A DNA stretch of 42,406 nucleotides from the IMG/VR virus record IMGVR_UViG_3300046836_000104, positions 1 to 42,406 of that record; one strand, given 5' to 3'. Under the pieces are notes generated by a model, which worked only from the letters and a program-made list of their open reading frames with translations, did no database searches and was not told the origin of the DNA. A program made the translations under genes and the position numbers. This document shows, in pieces, positions 4,870 through 32,947 of this stretch (positions are counted from its first letter, which is position 1; each line of letters opens with the position of its first letter). The stretch comes from a virus.

Positions 4870-5279
4870 GACTCGTCTCCAGGCTCGCGCTCGACGGCGT
4901 CCTTCTTCGGCGCGTCAACCTTCTTGGCGCGAATCCGAACCGCCGACACGATCTGACCGAACGCTGACACAGCCGGGTCCACGTAGAGCGCGATGTGCTG
5001 GCCATACCACTTGCTCGTGTCCGGGCCGAACAGGGCCGCGAGAATGCGGATGTTCGTGCTGTTGAGGCCCAGCTCGCGCTCGCGTCCGACGAACTTGAGC
5101 GACCCGTAGCCGCTTTTCGTCTCGTTCTTGAACTTCACCGACTTGCGGCGCACGACCTTTTCAATCTGCAAGATCGTGTCACGGTCGGCGGGGATCGTCT
5201 CCGCCGACAACCACTGCGAGTCCTTCAGAATGCCGCACGGGCCTCGATACGCTTCGCCGGCTTCGAGCTTCTCAGCCAT
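4866..5279 (-). CDS. Unknown 137-residue protein paired with the RecE-like exonuclease
   Basis: Starts at the ATG at 5279 (MAEKLEAGEAYRGPCG), overlapping the exonuclease gene by 8 bases. The core (RDTILQIEKVVRRKSVKFKNE, then YGSLKFVGRERELGLNSTNIRILAALFG) is a mixed alpha/beta domain with conserved-looking glycines, and the end is basic (RIRAKKVDAPKKDA). Exonucleases of this kind usually sit beside a single-strand binding or annealing protein, so that partner role is possible. No RecT, Erf or SSB motif is visible to confirm it. Confidence 0.6.
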   Translation of the reverse strand: MAEKLEAGEAYRGPCGILKDSQWLSAETIPADRDTILQIEKVVRRKSVKFKNETKSGYGSLKFVGRERELGLNSTNIRILAALFGPDTSKWYGQHIALYVDPAVSAFGQIVSAVRIRAKKVDAPKKDAVEREPGDES

Positions 5280-6102
5280 CAATGTCCTCCACCATTTCCA
5301 ACACGGTTGACGCGATAAGCGCGGACGGGGGCGGTTCAATCAGCATCCACTCGTCAGGCGTGCTTGGCCACGTCTCCGCCTCTCGGCACGTCTTCAGCGC
5401 GTAGAGCGTCTGGGTGTTCTCAATCGCGAGCAGGTCGAGCGCGTCCGGCTTGATTTCCAGCGTGTAGACGAAATACGGCTCTTGCGGATGAATCACAATC
5501 AGCCGCGCGCCGAGCACGCCCAGCCCCACGGCTTCCGCGCCCGTTCGGTAGTGCGCGAGTTGGTGCATCCAGCCTTCCACGAACGCGCGATACGCGAGGT
5601 CGCCGCCCGCGTAACGGCTGATCTTCAGGTCGTAGAGATAGCGCCCATCTAGGCAGTCTGGCCGCGCCTTGCACGGTTCGCCCGTGAGCGCATCGGACCA
5701 GAAGATCGACGCTTCCTGATGCGTGGCGCGCGTCAACGCTTCGCCCACGCGGGACTTCGCAGACAGGGCCAAGCGCATCCGGTCGACCGTCAGCGCTTCG
5801 ACGTAGGTCAGGATGTGCCGGTCGGCGTGCGCGTCACGCCACGCTTTGCCGTCCTTCGTCGCGAAGCTCATGCCGTCCGGCTTCGCGACATACGTCTCGG
5901 CGTAGAGCGTCGGCTGAAACACGGCCATGTGGACCGCCGTGCCGAACGCCATCGCGTCAGACTCGCGGCGATTCTCGCGCTCCCACATGACCCGTGCGGG
6001 TGGACCTTTCCGCATGGCCTTCAGCGAGTGCGATCCCCAGGCGTCAGACGCATGGTAGGCGTCCGATGGCAGGTCGATGAGGAGGACCGGCGCATCGCTC
6101 AC
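5272..6102 (-). CDS. RecE-like PD-(D/E)XK exonuclease
   Basis: The 276-residue length and motif order fit phage exonuclease-VIII-type proteins of the DUF3799/PDDEXK group. GTAVH lies at 54-58. CKARPDCLDG contains D149, and YDLKIS gives D158-x-K160, the metal-binding D...DxK core. QLAHYRTG at 181-188 matches the Q-x3-Y motif of lambda-exonuclease-like enzymes. It would resect double-stranded ends for phage recombination and replication in the host cytoplasm. It is coupled by overlap to its 137-residue neighbour. Confidence 0.8.
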   Translation of the reverse strand: MSDAPVLLIDLPSDAYHASDAWGSHSLKAMRKGPPARVMWERENRRESDAMAFGTAVHMAVFQPTLYAETYVAKPDGMSFATKDGKAWRDAHADRHILTYVEALTVDRMRLALSAKSRVGEALTRATHQEASIFWSDALTGEPCKARPDCLDGRYLYDLKISRYAGGDLAYRAFVEGWMHQLAHYRTGAEAVGLGVLGARLIVIHPQEPYFVYTLEIKPDALDLLAIENTQTLYALKTCREAETWPSTPDEWMLIEPPPSALIASTVLEMVEDIDG

Positions 6103-18111: not shown

Positions 18112-18876
18112 ATGCCCACGACTGCGCTGCAGATTGCCACGCTGGCCTTCCGAGACATTGGTGTCCTGAGCCAAGGCCAGTCCATTTCGACGTTTCAGTC
18201 GCAGGACGCGCTCGTCAGGCTGAACACCTTCGTCGACAGCCTCGGGACGCAGCCGCAGTCGATGCCGTTCGTCGCCCGGTTGACCTTTGCGCTCATCTCA
18301 GGCAAGGGCACTGAAGCCAATCCCTATACGATTGGACCGGGCGGCGACTTTGATACCCCACGGCCGCTGCGTCTGAACGGCGCCGGCCTCATTCTCAACA
18401 GCCTGCCCGAAGGCCCGAACACGGTGGAGATTCCGCGCGGCGTCTTCACCGATGACGGCTACGAGGCGACCCAGCTCAAGGCGCTCCAGAACTCGCTGCC
18501 GACCTGCGTCTACTACCGGCCGACATTCGCCGCTGGCCTCGGGACGATCATTCTGTGGCCCGTGCCGAACACGGCCCAGAACGCGCTCGCACTCTACATC
18601 CAGCAGCCGATCGCGCAGTTTGCCGACCTCTCGACGGCCTACTACTTCCCGTATGGCTACGCCGAGATGTTCGAATACAACCTCGCGATGCGTCTCGCGC
18701 GGGCGTATGGCGTGCCGCTCGCGCAGATTCCTGACATCACCGACGCGGCGCGGCAGTCGCTCATGGAAATCAAGCGGGCGAATCTGAAACTGACCGACCT
18801 GCCGCAAGATCCGGCGATGACCGGTTCACGGCGCGGCGGCTACAACATCAACACGGGCGGGACGGGTTCCTACTGA
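18112..18876 (+). CDS. Head-tail adaptor, P22 gp4-like
   Basis: 254 residues. The start (TALQIATLAFRDIGVLSQGQSISTFQSQDALVRLNTFVDSL) is the signature of gp4-type packaged-DNA stabilisation and adaptor proteins. YYFPYGYAEMFEYNLAMRLARAYG (about 181-204) is the conserved C-terminal helical region. A beta insertion (GTEANPYTIGPGGDFDTPRP) is normal for the longer family members. It docks on the portal ring and connects to gp10-type protein encoded downstream. Confidence 0.75.
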   Translation: MPTTALQIATLAFRDIGVLSQGQSISTFQSQDALVRLNTFVDSLGTQPQSMPFVARLTFALISGKGTEANPYTIGPGGDFDTPRPLRLNGAGLILNSLPEGPNTVEIPRGVFTDDGYEATQLKALQNSLPTCVYYRPTFAAGLGTIILWPVPNTAQNALALYIQQPIAQFADLSTAYYFPYGYAEMFEYNLAMRLARAYGVPLAQIPDITDAARQSLMEIKRANLKLTDLPQDPAMTGSRRGGYNINTGGTGSY

Positions 18877-19961
18877 TGGCTGAGACACAGTCCGGTCAAG
18901 GCGTGCTCTCAGCGGCGCAACAAGACGTCCGGGCCTCGGTGGCCGGATTCGCTGGCGTGTCGATTCAGGCCACGGGCACCTTCAGCGGCACCATCAGTTT
19001 TGAAGGCAGCATTGATGGGGTGAACTTCGCGGCGCTCCTCGCCAGTCCGATTGGCGTAGCGACCGCCGTCACCAGCGCGACCGCGGCGGGGTTGTGGACC
19101 GGCACGTGTGCGGGCCTGCAGGTCGTCCGCGTGAGAATGTCGTCGTTCAGTTCCGGCAATGTGCTGGTGCATATCAAGTCGGTGCTGTCGTCCCCTGGGG
19201 GCTCTGGGAGCGGCGGCGGCGGTGGCGGCGGTGGCGTCGTCCAGATTTCGGACGGGTCCAACCCGGCGATTCTCGCGACGGTGCGACAGTATGCCGACAG
19301 CAACCCGCTGGCGGTGCAACTGACGGACAGTAACGGCGATCCGATTGCCGGGTCCGCGGTCACGATTGCCGATGGCGCGGACGTCACCGAAGGCGCGATT
19401 GCGAATACCGCGGTCACGGGTGACAACACCGGCACGGTCAGTGCCAAGTTGCGCGGGTTCAACAAAATCTGGGCCGACGTGTGGGACTCGTCCAACCACT
19501 GGCTGAAAGTCTCGATTCAGAACGCGACGCTCGCGGTGACGCAGAGCGGGTCGTGGGTAATCTCGGCCGGGTCGGCGCTCATCGGCAAGGTCGGCATAGA
19601 CCAGACCACGCCCGGAACGACGAATGCGGTCGCCGTCACGACGGCCATTACGATCAAGCGCGTGGCGATTGCGGCGAGCTCGAGCGGCGACAACACCCTC
19701 ATCTCGGCCGTGAGCGGCAAGAAAATCACCGTCCTCGCCTATGAGTTGTCCTTCAGCGGCACGGTGAATGCGAAGTTTACCGATGGCGCGAGCGGCACGA
19801 ACCTCGGCGGCTTGTTCTATGGCGTGACCAATTCCGGTGCCGCGAATGCGCTGGCACTTCCCAGTTTCCTCTTTCAAGGCACGGCGACGACGGCGCTCAT
19901 CCTGAACCTCAGTGGCGCGACCGCAGTCGGTGGCGGCGTCACCTATTACGAGGCGGCGTAA
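18876..19961 (+). CDS. Two-domain surface or fibre protein with poly-Gly linker
   Basis: 361 residues. Residues 1-105 form a jelly-roll-like domain (VSIQATGTFSGTISFEGSIDGVNFAAL), typical of phage surface proteins. A GSGSGGGGGGGG linker follows at about 108-120, then 240 residues of Ala/Thr/Gly-rich beta sequence. It overlaps the adaptor stop and is followed directly by TAAATG with the next ORF in the same frame. It is probably on the virion surface; the receptor is unknown. Confidence 0.55.
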   Translation: MAETQSGQGVLSAAQQDVRASVAGFAGVSIQATGTFSGTISFEGSIDGVNFAALLASPIGVATAVTSATAAGLWTGTCAGLQVVRVRMSSFSSGNVLVHIKSVLSSPGGSGSGGGGGGGGVVQISDGSNPAILATVRQYADSNPLAVQLTDSNGDPIAGSAVTIADGADVTEGAIANTAVTGDNTGTVSAKLRGFNKIWADVWDSSNHWLKVSIQNATLAVTQSGSWVISAGSALIGKVGIDQTTPGTTNAVAVTTAITIKRVAIAASSSGDNTLISAVSGKKITVLAYELSFSGTVNAKFTDGASGTNLGGLFYGVTNSGAANALALPSFLFQGTATTALILNLSGATAVGGGVTYYEAA

Positions 19962-21272
19962 ATGGCCGTACCCACGATTCTCATCGACTCGTCCAGCGGA
20001 TCAGACTCGGCGGCCAGTGGGGCGGGGCCGTCGACTGCGCTGACTGGCACCGTTGCCGCGACCAACGGCGGTGGCACCGTCGTCACGCTGGATGCCGGCA
20101 CCGTCCTCACGGGCGTCTCGACCACCGGATCAGACGTAATCTACGTAGTCGATCCCACGGCTGGCCATCGTCGATTCGCCTCCATCAATGCGACCTCCGG
20201 CAGCGGGGGGGCGACGCCCACTGTGACCGTGAATGAAGCCCTCACGGGGAGTCTCAGCGGCATTGCGTGGGCGATTGGGGGCAAGCGGGCCTCGCTCGGC
20301 AGCACAACCTCGCGCCTGCTGGTGAACAACAACGGCAGCAGCGGCGATGCGATGCCGGGCTGGACGATGCAGTTTCAGTCCGGGCACACGGAAACGACGA
20401 CGCGATTCGATCTGCAACGCGCTGGGGATACGACCACTGGCCCCATCACCATCGAAGGCATCGCGGGGGCGGGCGTGAAGCCCCTGCTGACGTTCACCGA
20501 CGATGACCGATCCTTCGTCAACAACGCGGCCTCGTGGCAACTGCGAAACTTTTCAGCGAAGAACAGCCACGGCAGTCCGGGCACCGGATGCTCGTTCGTG
20601 TTCGTCAATTCGACCCCGTTCATCCTGGACGGCCTCACGATTGGCACCGTGTCGGATGTCTATTACGCGGGCATCGTCACCGGCGGTGCGGTATATCTGA
20701 TCAGGAACTGCGAAGTGGGGTGGTGCTCGGGTGGAGACGGCATCGGCGCAGGCGTGAGCGACCCCCAGATCGAAAACTGCTACTGCCACGACAACGCCGG
20801 TCACGGCATCAACGCGAGCGGGGGCGTGATCGATCTCAACATCGTGAACAATATCTGTGCGCGGAACGGCGGCGACGGCATTCTCATCACCGGGGGCACG
20901 GACTTCAGCCGACGCACGTATCGAGTGGCGGCGAACACGTGCGACAACAACACGAGCCACGGCATCGAGTTCGACGGCCTGATGACGTCCTTCAACGCGA
21001 TGGACTACCTGAACAACATCCTGTCGAATAACGGCGGATGGGGGCTGAAGTTCCATGCCAGTCAGACGTTGCCGGAGCTGCAGGCCAACGGCGCCCGCGG
21101 CGACAACAACGACACGTTCAACAACACGTCCGGCGCGTGCAGCGTCACCGGCTTTCTCACCAACGACCCGGGACTCGACCCCCAGTTCACGAATGCGGCG
21201 GCCGGCGATTTCACCATCGGCACCAACCTTGCCGCGAAGGGATACCCGAGTCTGGTCGGCGGCTCGCAGTAA
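19962..21272 (+). CDS. Right-handed beta-helix surface protein
   Basis: 436 residues. A Ser/Gly/Thr-rich N-terminus leads to a parallel beta-helix with repeated rungs (NCEVGWCSGGDG, IENCYCHDNAGHGINAS, IVNNICARNGGDGILITGG) at about 240-330. The end, TIGTNLAAKGYPSLVGGSQ, stops just short of the (V)DIGAxQR closing motif of this protein class. That motif appears at the start of the next ORF in the same frame. Beta-helix phage proteins usually bind or cleave polysaccharide; no catalytic residues are identified. Confidence 0.65.
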   Translation: MAVPTILIDSSSGSDSAASGAGPSTALTGTVAATNGGGTVVTLDAGTVLTGVSTTGSDVIYVVDPTAGHRRFASINATSGSGGATPTVTVNEALTGSLSGIAWAIGGKRASLGSTTSRLLVNNNGSSGDAMPGWTMQFQSGHTETTTRFDLQRAGDTTTGPITIEGIAGAGVKPLLTFTDDDRSFVNNAASWQLRNFSAKNSHGSPGTGCSFVFVNSTPFILDGLTIGTVSDVYYAGIVTGGAVYLIRNCEVGWCSGGDGIGAGVSDPQIENCYCHDNAGHGINASGGVIDLNIVNNICARNGGDGILITGGTDFSRRTYRVAANTCDNNTSHGIEFDGLMTSFNAMDYLNNILSNNGGWGLKFHASQTLPELQANGARGDNNDTFNNTSGACSVTGFLTNDPGLDPQFTNAAAGDFTIGTNLAAKGYPSLVGGSQ

Positions 21273-22496
21273 ATGGCGACCACGTCCACGGTCGACATTG
21301 GGGCGGTCCAACGCAAAGAAAGCGGCTCGCCTGCGCCCAATACGTCCTATGTGGACATCGGGGCGTCTCAACGAAGTGGCACTACTCCGCCTCCGGCCGC
21401 CTACTGCTACCGCCGCACGCTGACCGTCGATCACACGCAATGCGGCACGGCCAACTCGACTGACTTCCCCGTCGTGGTGCGGCTATCCGACGCGACATTC
21501 AAGACGGTCGCCAATGGCGGGCACGTCCAGCACACGACGACCTCGAACGGGCAGACGGTGCCGGCGGATCTCAACTTCTACAGCGACCTCGCGCTGACGA
21601 CGCCGCTCAACTACGAAACGGAGTCCTACGACCCCACGACCGGCGATCTCGTGTGCTGGGTGAAGCTGCCGACGCTGTCTCATACGGCCGATACCGTGTT
21701 CTACATGGCCTATGGCGATGCCGGGACGACGACGTTTCAAGGCAACGTCAACGGCACGTGGAATAGCAACTTCAAGGGCGTCTGGCATCTGCCGAACGGA
21801 TCGTCACTGGCGGCCACGGATTCCACGGCGGGCGCGCATACCGGGACGATCACGGGACCGGCGGCCACGGCTGGCACCATCGACGGGGGGGCGTCATTCC
21901 CAGGCAGTAGCACGAACACGATCAACTTCGGGGCCAGCGCCGACTGGAACTTCGCGGGCGGATTTACCGTGTCGCTGTGGATGAAGATCGGCGTCGATGC
22001 GGATGGCTTTCTGCTCGGCATCCACAACGGATCGACCGCCTTCGCCTTTGAACTCGTGCAGACGCATTTGGTCGGCGGCGATGGCATCCTGTGGGCCGTG
22101 AATGGGGCGAGCACACAGGCGCACTATTTCGTGAGTGTGGCTGACGGCAACTGGCACCAGATCGTCGGCACCTGGAACAGCGGCACGCAGATTCCCACCT
22201 TGTATGTCGATGGAGCCTTTGTCGCATCAGGCACCGCCTCGGGTGCATTCGGCGGGTCGTCGTCCATCGCCCTCACCGCTGGCAACGACGCGGGCGGCGT
22301 GGGCGTGTTTGGGCTCTATGCCGGGACCTTAGACGAACTCCATGCGGCGAATGCGCTCCTCTCGACTGACTGGATCACGTCTGAGTTCAACAACCAGATG
22401 CCGTCCTCGACATTCTTCAGCCTCAGCGGCGAAACCTTCCTCTGCGGCAATGCGGTAAAATCCTCCGGCATTCGTGGCTGGAGCTGGGGGTTCTAA
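21273..22496 (+). CDS. DUF2341/LamG-like carbohydrate-binding protein
   Basis: 407 residues, in frame with the preceding ORF and separated from it only by TAA. It opens with two VDIGAxQR units. Then YRRTLTVDHTQCGTANSTDFPVVVRLSDATFK and VFYMAYGDAGTTTF follow the DUF2341 pattern (about 45-165). From about 175 a concanavalin-like LamG fold follows (GASFPGSSTNTINFG, FTVSLWMKIG, WHQIVGTWNSGTQIPTLYVDG). Such lectin folds on virions suggest surface-sugar binding. Confidence 0.65.
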   Translation: MATTSTVDIGAVQRKESGSPAPNTSYVDIGASQRSGTTPPPAAYCYRRTLTVDHTQCGTANSTDFPVVVRLSDATFKTVANGGHVQHTTTSNGQTVPADLNFYSDLALTTPLNYETESYDPTTGDLVCWVKLPTLSHTADTVFYMAYGDAGTTTFQGNVNGTWNSNFKGVWHLPNGSSLAATDSTAGAHTGTITGPAATAGTIDGGASFPGSSTNTINFGASADWNFAGGFTVSLWMKIGVDADGFLLGIHNGSTAFAFELVQTHLVGGDGILWAVNGASTQAHYFVSVADGNWHQIVGTWNSGTQIPTLYVDGAFVASGTASGAFGGSSSIALTAGNDAGGVGVFGLYAGTLDELHAANALLSTDWITSEFNNQMPSSTFFSLSGETFLCGNAVKSSGIRGWSWGF

Positions 22497-22854: not shown

Positions 22855-23111
22855 TGTCGCTCTTGAACGAAGGCTTCAACGTCTATTACCCGATTACGCC
22901 GAGCGACAGCGTCAACATCCTGTCCGGCTTGACGGATTCGATCTACGTCGGGACGAAGGGATCGACCGGCACCATCGTCGCGGTGATGCAGGATTTGCAG
23001 GTGGCGACGTTTGTCGGCCTCATCCCCGGCACGGTCTATCCGATTCGCTGCGTCCGAGTGAACTCGACCACGACGGATGCCTCGAACCTCGTCGCGCTGT
23101 ATATCCGGTAA
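22854..23111 (+). CDS. 85-residue beta-rich structural protein
   Basis: The sequence alternates strands (FNVYYPITPSDSVNILSGLTDSIYVGTKG and TVYPIRCVRVNSTTTDASNLVALYIR), a pattern common in small virion proteins. Its TAA is followed directly by the ATG of the gp10-like gene, in the same frame. This suggests a small neck or head-completion protein, but no family is recognised. Confidence 0.5.
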   Translation: MSLLNEGFNVYYPITPSDSVNILSGLTDSIYVGTKGSTGTIVAVMQDLQVATFVGLIPGTVYPIRCVRVNSTTTDASNLVALYIR

Positions 23112-24236
23112 ATGGGCGCGTTCCCCGGCTTCATCGGTCCATCCAATCGCACGACCTCGCGCTCGGTGAGTGTCGAGCGGACGATTGATTGGTATGCCGA
23201 ACAGATCACCGACGGGACGCCGAAGGCCCCCTGGCACTTCAACCCGACGCCATGCCTGACACCGTTCACGGGCCTGTATGCCGGCCCCGTGCGCGCGCTC
23301 TTCGGGCAGAACAACCGCGTCTTTGCGGTCGGCGGCGGCGTATTTCACGAAGTCATGGCCTCGCAGGTGAGCGTGCTGAAAGGCCTCGTGGCGATTGACG
23401 GCAGCCCCGCGACCATCGCCAGTAACGGACTCGCCGGCAATCAGGTCATGGTCGTCTCGGGCGGATTGGGCTACATCTATGACCTCGCGGCCAACACGTT
23501 CGCGCAAATCACGTCGCCAGACTTCCCAGCGAATGTGCGATCCGTCGTGTTCTTTGACGGCTACTTCATTGTCCTTACGGCCCTTGGTGAGTTCTTCCTG
23601 TCCGACCTCGAGGACGGCACGACGTGGAACGCCCTGGACTTCGCCGCCGAGTCTCAGTTTTCCGATACCGTCGTCGCGATGACGGCGACCAATGACAACC
23701 TGTGGCTCTACGGCACGCAGCACATCGGGCCGTGGTATGACTCGGGCGATCCGCTGTTTCCGTTCACGCCGGTTCCGGGTTCGGTCATGCAGGTTGGCAC
23801 GGCGGCGCCGTTCTCGGCGTGCAACCTCTTCACGACGCCCGTCTGGCTGGGCCAGAACGCTGACGGCAACGGCATCGTCTACGCGGGGAACGGTTATCAG
23901 CCGACGCCCGTGTCGTCCTTCGCGCTGAATCAGGCCCTCGCCACGGTAACGGCCTCACAACTCTTTCAGTCTGTCGCCTGGACGCATCAGGACTTGGGCC
24001 ATTCGTTCTACGCGCTTCAAGTGCCGGGCCTGCAGACGACGTGGTTCTGGGATCTGACGACGCGAGAGTGGCACGAGCGCGCCGTGTGGAACGCGACGAA
24101 AGAAACGTATGAGCGGCACTTCGGCCAGAACCACACCTATGCGTTCGGGAAGCATCTGGTGGGGGATCGGCAGAGCGGCGTGATCTACTCGATGGACAGC
24201 ACGCTCAACGAAAACCTGCTGTATGTGGTCGCCTGA
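23112..24236 (+). CDS. gp10-like DNA stabilisation protein, N-terminal part
   Basis: 374 residues. MGAFPGFIGPSNRTTSRSVSVERTIDWYAEQI is the hallmark start of P22 gp10-type stabilisation proteins. The beta-rich core includes FFDGYFIVLTALGEFFLSDL and GDRQSGVIYSMDSTLNEN at the end. Family members normally continue here with arginine-rich sequence that lies in this window only at the end of the next ORF (from about 25637). This ORF thus appears to hold the N-terminal three quarters of the protein. It overlaps the next ATG (TGATG). Confidence 0.75.
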   Translation: MGAFPGFIGPSNRTTSRSVSVERTIDWYAEQITDGTPKAPWHFNPTPCLTPFTGLYAGPVRALFGQNNRVFAVGGGVFHEVMASQVSVLKGLVAIDGSPATIASNGLAGNQVMVVSGGLGYIYDLAANTFAQITSPDFPANVRSVVFFDGYFIVLTALGEFFLSDLEDGTTWNALDFAAESQFSDTVVAMTATNDNLWLYGTQHIGPWYDSGDPLFPFTPVPGSVMQVGTAAPFSACNLFTTPVWLGQNADGNGIVYAGNGYQPTPVSSFALNQALATVTASQLFQSVAWTHQDLGHSFYALQVPGLQTTWFWDLTTREWHERAVWNATKETYERHFGQNHTYAFGKHLVGDRQSGVIYSMDSTLNENLLYVVA

Positions 24237-25975
24237 TGGCAGCCCCCACGAACATCTCCGCGCTCACGGCGACGGCGATGAGCACGAACCAAACCATCAC
24301 GCAGCGCGTCGATGATAGCGGCACGACCTACACCGTCTGGTTCAAGATGCTGGCTGACGTTGATGGCGTGGTGGGCGTATGGCCGTTTGGCGACCTGACG
24401 ACGTATGAGCCGCACTCGCAGGTGTTCTACAACGACGGCACGACGCAGTTCATGGACTACAAGTCACCGAACAGTTTCGGGTCCACGAACACGAATCTGC
24501 CGTTTCTGATCCCGGTCACGGCCGGCATCACGTATTACTTCAAGATTCCTCCGAACGCCGGCAATCCGTCTCCGGCCAACCTGACGATCTCGACCGTCTC
24601 GTTCACGTCATCCTCATTGCACGCGGGCGACTTCATTAACAACCGCGAGGAAGACGACAGTTTTGAGCACCCGCTGACGGTGATGGCGCAGACGGCCTAC
24701 ACGTCTCGCGCCTTCGTGCAGCTCGCGCCGCCGATTCCAGGTGCGCGCGATGGCAGCGGCTTACCGCACGGCGATCAGGGCGCGATTCTGAACGACGGTC
24801 ACTTCTTGTATTTGGACAACGGGTTTCTCACAGGCAAGATTTACGACCAGTTTTTCAACGTCGTCGCGACGGTCAACTACGCCGGCACGCATAAGTTCCT
24901 TGTTGGGTCCAATCGGACGAGTGCTCATTTCTACGTCGCGCATCAGGCGTCACCTGGCGGCATCTTCACGATTGACGAACTGAGTACGGCTGGCGTGCTG
25001 ACGAATCAGTGGGCTACCACGATCACGTCCATCGACGCGATTGCGGTCAACAACGACGCGACGATCCTGTATTACGCGACGTCGTCTCTGAGTGCCACGA
25101 TCAAGAGTTGGAACCTGCCAGGCGCTTCGGCGCTGCCGGACATCGAAGCCCTGACGAGTTTTTCGGTGTTCGACATCCTCTACTTGCAGGACAACACGAT
25201 CCTCATCGACGCCTTGGGCACATCTGGCGGCGCTCCGCATCAGGTCATCGCGAAGCAATACGCGACCAATGGGACGATCCTGCACACCTACGACTTCGGC
25301 ACGCTCTGGCGGAACGACCTGAACCCGCCGCGCATCGGCTACGCGCTGGATTCTCCGGCCTCGTTCTGGATTCGCCTTGCCCCTAATGCGGACCAAGGCA
25401 GCGACACGTTCAAGCACGTCAAGATTAGCGATGGGTCGATTCTTGACACCTTCAATCAGGCCAACTACCTCTTCGGCCAATACATCGGCACGGCCACGGC
25501 CACACCGCCGTCTCGGTTCGGTCAAGAAAAGGCCGGGGCGCTCTTGGTGGCTCCGCTTGGTGGTGTGTCACCATCTGCGCTGCGTCCACCGTGGCCGCTC
25601 GTGCCCCCGTTTGTGTCGGGCGTGGGCGGACTTGAAACTGTGCCGCAGCGACGGCTCCGCGTGGCGCCGCACCTCTCGGCCGAGCAGTTCAACATCTTTT
25701 ACGACCAGTTCACGCTCGACCTGCAAGTGGGCAACGGCGTGCTCGTGGGCCAAGGCGTGAACCCGCAGATCATGCTGCGAATGTCGGACAATGGCGGCTA
25801 CACGTGGAGCGATGAGATCCTGCTTGATACTGGCGCGCAGGGTCAATATCTGACGCGCGTCACGGCGAACGGCCTCGGCCAAGCGCGGGACCGCGTGTTC
25901 GAGATTTCGACGTCTGATCCGGTGTCGTGGTCGATCATCGGCGCGTATCTGAACACGCGGAAAGGCCGCTGGTAA
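24236..25975 (+). CDS. Insert domains fused to gp10-like C-terminal part
   Basis: 579 residues in two unlike parts. Residues 468-579 (PQRRLRVAPHLS, then QIMLRMSDNGGYTWSDE, DRVFEISTSDPVSWSIIGAYL) are the conserved C-terminal segment of gp10-like proteins. Residues 1 to about 460 are foreign to that family: a beta-sandwich (APTNISALTATAM to about 125) and a stretch resembling a beta-propeller (ILNDGHFLYLDNGFLTGKIYDQFF onwards). The join with the previous ORF is TGATG, so both halves are probably made together. Whether they assemble as one protein is inference. Confidence 0.7.
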   Translation: MAAPTNISALTATAMSTNQTITQRVDDSGTTYTVWFKMLADVDGVVGVWPFGDLTTYEPHSQVFYNDGTTQFMDYKSPNSFGSTNTNLPFLIPVTAGITYYFKIPPNAGNPSPANLTISTVSFTSSSLHAGDFINNREEDDSFEHPLTVMAQTAYTSRAFVQLAPPIPGARDGSGLPHGDQGAILNDGHFLYLDNGFLTGKIYDQFFNVVATVNYAGTHKFLVGSNRTSAHFYVAHQASPGGIFTIDELSTAGVLTNQWATTITSIDAIAVNNDATILYYATSSLSATIKSWNLPGASALPDIEALTSFSVFDILYLQDNTILIDALGTSGGAPHQVIAKQYATNGTILHTYDFGTLWRNDLNPPRIGYALDSPASFWIRLAPNADQGSDTFKHVKISDGSILDTFNQANYLFGQYIGTATATPPSRFGQEKAGALLVAPLGGVSPSALRPPWPLVPPFVSGVGGLETVPQRRLRVAPHLSAEQFNIFYDQFTLDLQVGNGVLVGQGVNPQIMLRMSDNGGYTWSDEILLDTGAQGQYLTRVTANGLGQARDRVFEISTSDPVSWSIIGAYLNTRKGRW

Positions 25976-26403
25976 TGGCACGCGGTCAAGGCGTCAACCC
26001 GTTCGGCATGCCCACGGATGCACAGCCCATTTCGGACACTCGCGGGATCGTCACGATTCCGTGGCGGCTCTATCTGGCGAAGTTCGGACAGACGCTCGTC
26101 AACACCTACGTCACGCACACGGGCAATCTCACGGTTGACCATCTCGTGCTGGGCAATGGCGGCGGCGACATCAAGTCGATTGCCGCGCATGATGGCGAAG
26201 TCCCAATCGGATCGACCGCGGACGGGACGGTCGTCGCCTCCACGCTCACGGCTGGCGCCGGCATTGCCATCACCAACGCCGCGCACAGTATTACGATCCG
26301 AGCGACAGGCGCCGCGTCATTGATTCCACTCGTGACCGGCGCCGAACCGCCAGTCCTCGTCAGCGATGGTGCTGGCCATCTCATCTTGGTGCCTGCCGCA
26401 TGA
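25975..26403 (+). CDS. 142-residue tail/neck-associated protein
   Basis: ATG at 25975 shares a base with the upstream TAA (TAATG), giving MARGQGVNPFGMPTDAQPISDTRG. The later GIVTIPWRLYLAKFGQTLV segment and the Thr/Gly-rich strands (GNLTVDHLVLGNGGGDIKSI, ASTLTAGAGIAITNAAHSITI) resemble phage fibre-attachment proteins. It probably links the neck to the following fibre protein. The function is inferred. Confidence 0.5.
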   Translation: MARGQGVNPFGMPTDAQPISDTRGIVTIPWRLYLAKFGQTLVNTYVTHTGNLTVDHLVLGNGGGDIKSIAAHDGEVPIGSTADGTVVASTLTAGAGIAITNAAHSITIRATGAASLIPLVTGAEPPVLVSDGAGHLILVPAA

Positions 26404-30696: not shown

Positions 30697-32299
30697 TCCG
30701 CAGCAGACCTCTACGCTGAAGCCTGGCCAAGACGTGAGTTCGCTCATGGCCGGGCAGGATGTGTCTTCGCTGATGGGTGGCACGGCACCACCGGCGACGC
30801 TGACGCCTGAAAGCCATCCGGCCGTCGCGGCCGGTGTCGGGCAATTCTTCTCGGATCTCAATCCGACCTCGCTGGCGGAACTCATCGCGAAGAATCCAGG
30901 CGATCCGATTGGGGCGGTGCTGGGCGCGCTAGGCCAGTCGTCCAAAGAACACGTCAAAGCCGGCATGGATGCGATGGACAAGGGCGACCATGCGGCCGCG
31001 GCTTCGCATTTTGTCGGCGCGGTGCCGGTTGTCGGCCCTGTGGTGGACAAACTGTTGACCTCAGTGCGGAACAAGGACGAGAAGGGCATCGCGGAATCCT
31101 TGGGCTCATTCGCGGCGCTCGCGGCTCCGGTCGTGGCCTCTGGCGGCGCCGCGGCGGCCGGTGAAGCGGTCGCGCCGAAGATTGGCGAAGCCGCTCAAGC
31201 GCGCGCCGTGTCGAACGTGGCCGACGCGCTAGGTCCGATCAACAACTGGGGCCGCTCGCGCTCGGGCAAGCAGTTCTCGCAGATGGCCGAAGAGGCGGCA
31301 CCGGACGTGCTCGCGGCGAAGCCTCCGGCGACCGCGCTCTCGCGCGATGCGCTGGCGAAGTTCGTCACGAAGCAGTTCGAGAACTCATCAACGGCATGGG
31401 AAACGGCCGAAGATGCTCGCTTCAAGGGTCAATCGCTGCCTACGCAGCCGATCGTCAACGAACTGCAGCAGCGGCTCGACGCCATCACGGCGCATCCCGT
31501 GCCTGGGAACCAAGTGCAGCGCACGGCAGTCACGTCGACCAGCCCGATCCTTGATGCCAGCGGGAAGCCAATTCAGACGACCACGCTCAAGGCGCAGCCG
31601 ATTGGCGAGGACGTGCCCAAGCCGAACACGGACGCACAACGGGCCGTGCTTCAGGATGCGATTGCAAGGTTGAAGAAGCTTGGCCCCATCGCGCGCTACG
31701 ATGACCTGCGGACGTTGCGACAGGGCTATGACCTCGGCGCCGACTACAAGCCGTCGCCGCTCTCGACGCCAGAAGAAAACGTCACGTCTCAGCAGAACTC
31801 GGCGGGCAACCGCATCGCGTCAGGCGCCATCCGAGACACGCTCGCCAAGGCCGATCCGAAACTGGCGCAGGCGAACGCGCAGTTCTCGATGTGGAAGAAC
31901 GCGCAGGATGTCGTCGCCGCAGCCGATGAACTCAACCGCACACAACCCAAGGGCGGCAGTTTTCAGGCCGTGCAGAAAGTCATGCCGATGGTGCTCGGCG
32001 GGCTCGGTGGCGCGGCCACGGGTATTCCAGGCGGCGCGGAGATCGGCGGCTTCATCGCTGGCGCATTGAAGATGGCCAAAGACGGCGGCTATACGACGCA
32101 GGTGGCGACGGCTCGCTACTTGTCTGACTTAGCTGACGCCATCAAAGCCGGGAACGCACCGAAAGTGTTCCGCACCATCGCGGCCATCTCTGCCGCCACA
32201 GGGATGCAGGTGCCGGCTATCAATCAGTCGCTTGCGGGACTCCAGCAGCCCGTCATCAACACCGGACAACCCGTCAATGTCGCCGGAGGCATACGCTAG
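30689..32299 (+). CDS. Internal virion protein, 536 residues
   Basis: I choose GTG at 30689 (MGDPQQTSTLKPGQ) because it has AAGGTGGA just upstream and makes the usual short overlap; the ATG at 30659 would overlap too far. The N-terminal region repeats GQDVSSLM twice. AAPVVASGGAAAAG (about 150) and MVLGGLGGAATGIPGGAEIGGFIAGAL (about 430-456) are membrane-insertion-like. Such features fit an ejection protein. No lysozyme or transglycosylase residues are seen. Confidence 0.6.
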   Translation: MGDPQQTSTLKPGQDVSSLMAGQDVSSLMGGTAPPATLTPESHPAVAAGVGQFFSDLNPTSLAELIAKNPGDPIGAVLGALGQSSKEHVKAGMDAMDKGDHAAAASHFVGAVPVVGPVVDKLLTSVRNKDEKGIAESLGSFAALAAPVVASGGAAAAGEAVAPKIGEAAQARAVSNVADALGPINNWGRSRSGKQFSQMAEEAAPDVLAAKPPATALSRDALAKFVTKQFENSSTAWETAEDARFKGQSLPTQPIVNELQQRLDAITAHPVPGNQVQRTAVTSTSPILDASGKPIQTTTLKAQPIGEDVPKPNTDAQRAVLQDAIARLKKLGPIARYDDLRTLRQGYDLGADYKPSPLSTPEENVTSQQNSAGNRIASGAIRDTLAKADPKLAQANAQFSMWKNAQDVVAAADELNRTQPKGGSFQAVQKVMPMVLGGLGGAATGIPGGAEIGGFIAGALKMAKDGGYTTQVATARYLSDLADAIKAGNAPKVFRTIAAISAATGMQVPAINQSLAGLQQPVINTGQPVNVAGGIR

Positions 32300-32947
32300 A
32301 TGTCGCTCCCGCTCTCGCTCCTCTTCGGCAAGTGGCAGCAGTTCACCGACGACCTCGGGGCACCGCTCGCCAACGGCAGCCTCAAGTTTTTCATCGCCGG
32401 CACCACGACGCCGCAAGCGGTCTATGCCGACAGCGACGGCATGACATCGCTCGGCACGACGGTGGACTTGAACGGCGCGGGCCGGCCGTCGTCGGGATCG
32501 AATCTCGTCGGTGTCTACCTGCTGCCCACCGGCTACAAGGTGAACGTCTACAACCAAGCCGCCGTGCTGCAGAGCTCGACCGATGACGTGGAAGACGTCG
32601 GATCGGCGTTCCTCGCAGACTTGGCGAACATCTGGGCGACGGGCTCGAAGTCGGTCACGACCGGCTACACCGTGGCTGACAGCGATAACTGGGTGTCAGT
32701 CTCCGAACCGACGACCAATCCGGCCATTCTCAACTTGCCAGCGGCGGCCTCTCGAGGCGGCGTGCTGTTCGTGCAGAATATCGGCCCGACGCCCGTATCG
32801 GTCACGCCGAACGGGAGCGAAACCATCAACAGTATCGCTGGCGCCTATGCGTTGCCGATTGCGGCGTCCCCCGTGTTCCCGGCGCTGCTCCTGCTGTCCG
32901 ATGGCGTGAGTAACTGGCTGGCATTCCAGAGCCTTGGCGCGCACTAA
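32300..32947 (+). CDS. Tailspike or tail-fibre protein with virion-binding start
   Basis: 215 residues. The N-terminus (DDLGAPLANGSLKFFIAGTTTPQAVYADSDGMTSLG and VDLNGAGRP) is the common head- or neck-binding module of phage tailspikes and fibres. The rest is a beta domain (SDNWVSVSEPTTNPAILNLP to the end). It is much shorter than enzymatic tailspikes, so it may be a short fibre or an adaptor for another spike. The TAG of the upstream gene is followed directly by its ATG, in the same frame. Confidence 0.65.
   Translation: MSLPLSLLFGKWQQFTDDLGAPLANGSLKFFIAGTTTPQAVYADSDGMTSLGTTVDLNGAGRPSSGSNLVGVYLLPTGYKVNVYNQAAVLQSSTDDVEDVGSAFLADLANIWATGSKSVTTGYTVADSDNWVSVSEPTTNPAILNLPAAASRGGVLFVQNIGPTPVSVTPNGSETINSIAGAYALPIAASPVFPALLLLSDGVSNWLAFQSLGAH

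Follow-up and report, generated by a model that had tools for sequence, protein, structure and literature searches.

In bacteria and archaea, termination-reinitiation pairs (Huber et al, PMC10666635; PMC6728339) are co-directional, have near-zero gaps or overlaps and often belong to one complex. Very short gene distances permit reinitiation, which drops steeply with distance, and such pairs are enriched for complex subunits (PMC10666635). It is in these features that the locus described here is like them; the difference is that −4 and −1 overlaps dominate there, whereas an exact zero-gap TAAATG recurs here, and that the coupling here is predicted. Among phage adhesins, short conserved N-terminal peptides dock second adhesins in K1-5, G7C and Klebsiella phages (KP32) (PMC6872550). 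These anchor-branch RBPs share with our locus a short conserved N-terminal peptide, divergent proteins and a variable cassette, but here the peptide is doubled, and its single copy ends a beta-helix protein in fused relatives. Lateral tail fibres offer another parallel, with a single Ltf in T5 and LtfA/LtfB in DT57C and DT571/2 (PMC4728585): compared by description, what is a single protein in some phages has a two-protein counterpart in others, and the duplicated short motif present here is unmentioned at the start of that article's abstract. Right-handed beta-helix tailspikes and lyases (7w1c; LKA1 gp49, 4ru4) are alike in fold by Pfam and by a weak structural match, with low TM-scores and low model confidence; the beta-helix protein studied here differs from them in lacking its closing motif and in being known from sequence alone.

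The window analysed, i.e. the whole stretch of 42,406 bases, is a virus record. It contains three ORFs (ORF1, ORF2 and ORF3; Table 1), whose coordinates and common frame were confirmed by an ORF check as originally predicted. ORF1 has no match in Pfam or PHROG profile searches, and its N-terminal third weakly matches two phages (three records). The PF13229 score of ORF2, 35.7 bits, lies above the Pfam gathering score of 25.9; a PDB profile search of the beta-helix returned mannuronan epimerases and a few other proteins, which align to the helix part and leave the motif uncovered, and AlphaFold2 gave the helix at moderate confidence and the C-terminus and motif at pLDDT about 30 (shallow alignments). 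ORF2 and ORF3 have no tblastn match among named phages, and an NCBIfam search gave no matches. The gene upstream of ORF1 (18112) resembles phrog_12985 and, weakly, the head-tail adaptor Ad3 (PHROG). Downstream, the head closure gene Hc3 has a sub-threshold Pfam match to Phage_stabilise and relatives in 46 named phage records, all below 60% identity; we take its product to be P22 gp10-like. From the profile matches of these flanking genes, the adhesin-like genes form a cassette between two connector genes.

Table 1. Features of the cassette and of the adjoining head closure gene, in window coordinates.
Feature	Position	Strand	Basis
ORF1, 361 aa surface protein, own gene	18876..19961	+	ORF call
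GAGG, possible ribosome site, 8 nt upstream of the ATG at 19962	19950..19953	+	sequence
TAAATG joint 1	19959..19964	+	string search
ORF2, right-handed beta-helix protein of 436 aa lacking the closing DIGAxQR	19962..21272	+	PF13229 8.1e-09; model and PDB matches
GGCGG, weak ribosome site (GGAGG in L003)	21258..21262	+	sequence
TAAATG joint 2	21270..21275	+	string search; kept in L003
ORF3, 407 aa, head and DUF2341-LamG body	21273..22496	+	ORF call, Pfam
35-residue head with two DIGAxQR copies	21273..21377	+	head comparison
Motif copy 1, DIGAVQR	21294..21313	+	pattern search
Motif copy 2, DIGASQR	21354..21373	+	pattern search
DUF2341 domain (PF10102) of ORF3	21567..21752	+	Pfam 8.8e-07
Laminin_G_3 domain (PF13385) of ORF3	21912..22376	+	Pfam 4.4e-14
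TAAATG joint before head closure gene, mosaic seam	23109..23114	+	identity with L003 drops from 100% to 35% across it
Head closure Hc3 / P22 gp10-like gene	23112..24236	+	phrog_578 2.3e-67

In the connector region itself, the phrog_578 (Hc3) profile is divided over two ORFs, 23112-24236 and 24236-25975: profile positions 10-360 lie in the first. Positions 368-472 fall within the C-terminal ~108 residues of the second, and the 470 residues that open this ORF are sequence other than the Hc3 profile. The named-phage matches to the first ORF end near residue 362. This may be another split, or an insertion, in a connector gene.

We recovered all the predicted TAAATG joints, including the one of the same form at 23111/23112, by a string search of the window. 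Note that a zero gap forces one frame, so that the same frame of ORF1, ORF2 and ORF3 is no second observation. The string is not enriched in the window (six copies on both strands versus 4.0 expected), and three of its four plus-strand copies are gene joints; a gene-end TAA stands directly before ATG in 3 of 12 cases, with a chance of ~4e-4 by a simple binomial. The genes called in the window use TAA, TAG and TGA as stops. With a simple gene call, the 23 plus-strand junctions of the window include five with a gap of −1, four of 0 and two of −4; with a both-strand call, the 36 same-strand pairs include five, four and four with gaps of −1, −4 and 0, respectively. Across 22 loci (25 named, three of <4000 bases skipped; L001 and L002 apparently identical sequence, judging from equal match values), gap 0 was found in 13 of 200 same-strand neighbour pairs. 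Nine of these 13 belong to the window and L010, i.e. 9/56 pairs against 4/144 elsewhere (p 0.0017 by Fisher's test, uncorrected for shared ancestry: L010 is the record of L003, discussed below, and joints common to it and the window are not independent). Given these counts, joining genes stop to start is a local habit within a tightly packed operon. At 32297-32302 the window has one more zero-gap joint, TAGATG, which is preceded by GGAGG and kept in L010 at 18205.

The joints had been described as having no clear ribosome site before them, which was not confirmed for the first two: GAGG precedes the ATG at 19962, and GGCGG precedes the ATG at 21273. A good ribosome site is absent at the ATG at 23112 (duplex energy −1.1). 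In L003 the homologues are genes of their own, and a ribosome site, GGAGG, precedes joint 2; the original prediction had itself named such an arrangement as refuting it.

Loci L003, L008 and L010 are one record, IMGVR_UViG_3300047316_000051, which carries the same connector genes as the window on both sides of its cassette. The order there is 88 aa, 144 aa, 102 aa, beta-helix, 131-aa head ORF, DUF2341-LamG and Hc3, with TAAATG at four joints, including the one before the separate DUF2341-LamG ORF. The L003 beta-helix is 87% identical to that of the window, and the gene preceding it differs from ORF1; the gene preceding Hc3 also differs from the window's, again with a TAAATG joint. Window and L003 DNA are 95.9% identical over 23108-26069; immediately before the ATG at 23112 only 4 bases match unbroken, and the 60 bases before it are 35% identical. 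This identity break at the Hc3 start therefore marks the TAAATG at 23109 as a mosaic seam. Further upstream, the DNA similarity spans joint 2 and stops at base 21373, where the pattern of motif copy 2 also ends, so that the head is the module edge. The DUF2341-LamG module forming the body behind the window head is met elsewhere too: it stands alone in L003 and L004 and is fused to another N-terminal part in L002. Since modules are rearranged in this way among relatives, ORF1, ORF2 and ORF3 are not pieces of one ancestral protein. The proposal of one long protein broken by stops thus fails for joint 1 and for 23112, where L003 has other neighbours, and stands in part for joint 2, where the motif is displaced; on these alignments, the first and last joints are plain module seams.

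Some parts recur between these cassettes. A similar small ORF ending in CVR..LG precedes the beta-helix gene in L003 (3378-3686) and in L021, and is absent before that of the window. The body of the L003 head ORF (5001-5396) shares a repeat module at its C-terminus with the DUF2341 proteins of L003 (5397-6536) and L004 (4208-5545); the last residues of the module are a variant of GNFPQCLNIAVMGL. This module of three adhesin-like proteins is possibly a second attachment module.

Joint 2 was examined through the closing motif. The beta-helix ORF ends at GYPSLVGGSQ and the next ORF begins with MATTSTVDIGAVQRKESGSPAPNTSYVDIGASQRS, as originally read. That the motif is one of the beta-helix family, cut off in the window, was borne out by a pattern scan, in that fused relatives exist: [YF]xDIGAxQR ends these, is absent from ORF2 and occurs twice in ORF3. 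Scanning viral contigs with [YF]xDIGAVQR gave 13 loci (L019-L031). In nine of them (L020, L022, L023, L025 and L027-L031) the motif and beta-helix-like sequence are in one ORF; in three (L019, L021 and L024) the motif opens a new ORF right behind a beta-helix ORF; the last, L026, is cut off. With the window and L003, there are five split cases, all from IMG/VR, two of which (the window and L003) are near relatives. The five heads are 34-35 residues long; copy 1 has an identical position in each, and copy 2 follows 20 residues on (19 in L021). A whole-record pattern search over 13 records (L023 and L031 left out) found two motif copies in 5/5 split records, one in 7/7 fused records and one in the edge-cut L026, and a reversed control pattern gave 0 matches in all 13 whole records. 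The bodies behind the five heads have no significant BLASTP similarity among themselves; as in anchor-branch RBPs, a conserved N-terminal peptide is thus carried by differing proteins.

Several other candidates and sources were considered. The two-copy pattern had 0 matches in genome contigs. A looser start-plus-motif pattern hit 21 stretches there, which we took as chance, as no second copy was found behind a beta-helix ORF among the matches listed. L018 (TAAATG and motif) was likewise treated as chance, having one motif copy and no in-frame beta-helix ORF upstream. A DNA-level repeat as the source of the copies was rejected, the copies differing at synonymous positions. The head peptides matched named phages either not at all or in three cases at E = 7. 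The string DIGAVQR was found in none of the paper texts searched, and the motif was absent from the titles and the opening parts of the abstracts of the papers listed.

The stops and gaps of the split cases bear directly on the proposal that the TAA codons are leaky, some ribosomes reading through to produce long fused forms beside short ones. In four of the five split loci the two ORFs share a frame and the start follows the stop at 0-3 nt, and one-ORF fused relatives exist, both of which readthrough would account for. Yet L019 is out of frame, and stops and gaps vary, namely TAA/0 nt in the window and L003, TGA/3 in L021 (TGA-CCC-ATG), TAG/3 in L024 (TAG-CGC-ATG) and TAA/1 in L019 (TAA-T-ATG), so that an in-frame extension is not conserved across relatives. 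Moreover, an ATG, needless for readthrough, is kept ≤3 nt from the stop in 5/5 split loci; a readthrough product would hold two motif copies where the fused form holds one; and at six joints we found no stimulating RNA structure, the folds being no more stable than those of shuffles (z −0.82 to +2.0). On this evidence we give long and short forms by readthrough hardly any credence. An ATG that always stays within 3 nt of the stop, while stop, gap and frame vary, fits the restart of a terminating ribosome. A start near the upstream stop, as in coupled pairs, is what we found at the three window joints (gap 0) and at the five heads (0-3 nt).

A stop mutation might also have broken a single beta-helix gene, leaving ORF3 as a remnant or a repaired fusion and the split functionless. 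The closing motif does lie past the stop instead of before it, and fused relatives are known, but a point mutation should yield a single motif copy, not the two seen in 5/5 split loci, and the bodies that follow the head are for the most part unrelated. The comparison of the window with L003 speaks against it as well: the beta-helix is under strong purifying selection (dN/dS = 0.11), and the head has kept its motif while its synonymous sites are saturated, so that both beta-helix and head are kept as proteins. Since the split state, in addition, requires three changes on the tree (see below), a broken gene is quite improbable.

The tree was built from the beta-helix with the motif excluded (12 rows, L023, L026 and L031 left out), and the split/fused label changes three times on it, the direction of the changes (gain versus loss) not being told by it. 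The closest relative of the split L024 is the fused L020 (42% over 435 columns), and that of the split L019 is the fused L022 (44% over 477 columns). A single split clade is rejected (AU p 2e-21, a value not from a blind test, the split group having been named after the motif data were seen). From these sequences, either the split would have arisen several times or heads would have been passed between phages. One tentative reading, to which we give about a third of our belief, is that several lineages independently detached the closing peptide, doubled it and put it on a second protein as a transferable docking tag. If so, the outer adhesin could be swapped without touching the beta-helix gene.

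Alternatively, the head could be the N-terminus of a separate adhesin family, its motif likeness coming from a common tail site and not from contact with the beta-helix. It is found on different bodies, its motif is unstructured in the models, and profile scans placed connector or head genes near the split head where neighbours could be named (window, L021 and L024), the three scanned neighbours in L019 being without a profile match. Against this, 5/5 heads lie directly behind a motif-less beta-helix ORF, and records with a motif-bearing beta-helix ORF show no second copy anywhere; we therefore regard a separate family as rather unlikely. As for structure, the motif as a folded beta-helix cap is not supported, its pLDDT being about 30 in models of L020 and of a read-through window (shallow alignments). 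Such a value fits a flexible docking peptide, but also the shallow 11-row alignment.

The reading that we favour, and consider likely, is a tail adhesin of several parts, produced by coupled termination-reinitiation, whose docking peptide has been transferred, as two copies, to a second protein that can be swapped. Its components differ in strength: separate translation of the ORFs is well supported, and we infer reinitiation, docking and the adhesin role, docking by analogy with the anchor-branch RBPs. ORF1, ORF2 and ORF3 would each be a gene of its own within the tail-adhesin cassette of an uncultured tailed phage, placed between a gp4-like connector gene and the head closure gene. The ribosome ending one gene would restart on the next through the stop-to-start joints, probably helped at two of them by a purine-rich site within the upstream gene. 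The closing motif, gone from the beta-helix ORF and found in two copies 20 residues apart within residues 1-35 of the protein that follows, would make the head a docking peptide that holds the swappable protein (DUF2341-LamG here) either on the beta-helix adhesin or at the place on the tail where the fused protein would attach.

Same-frame ORFs that abut stop-to-start should not be taken as readthrough without relatives. If our reading is right, a pattern of a stop followed by two DIGAxQR copies would find such systems in raw sequence, and in uncultured phages the 35-residue peptide would mark where adhesin parts can be plugged in.
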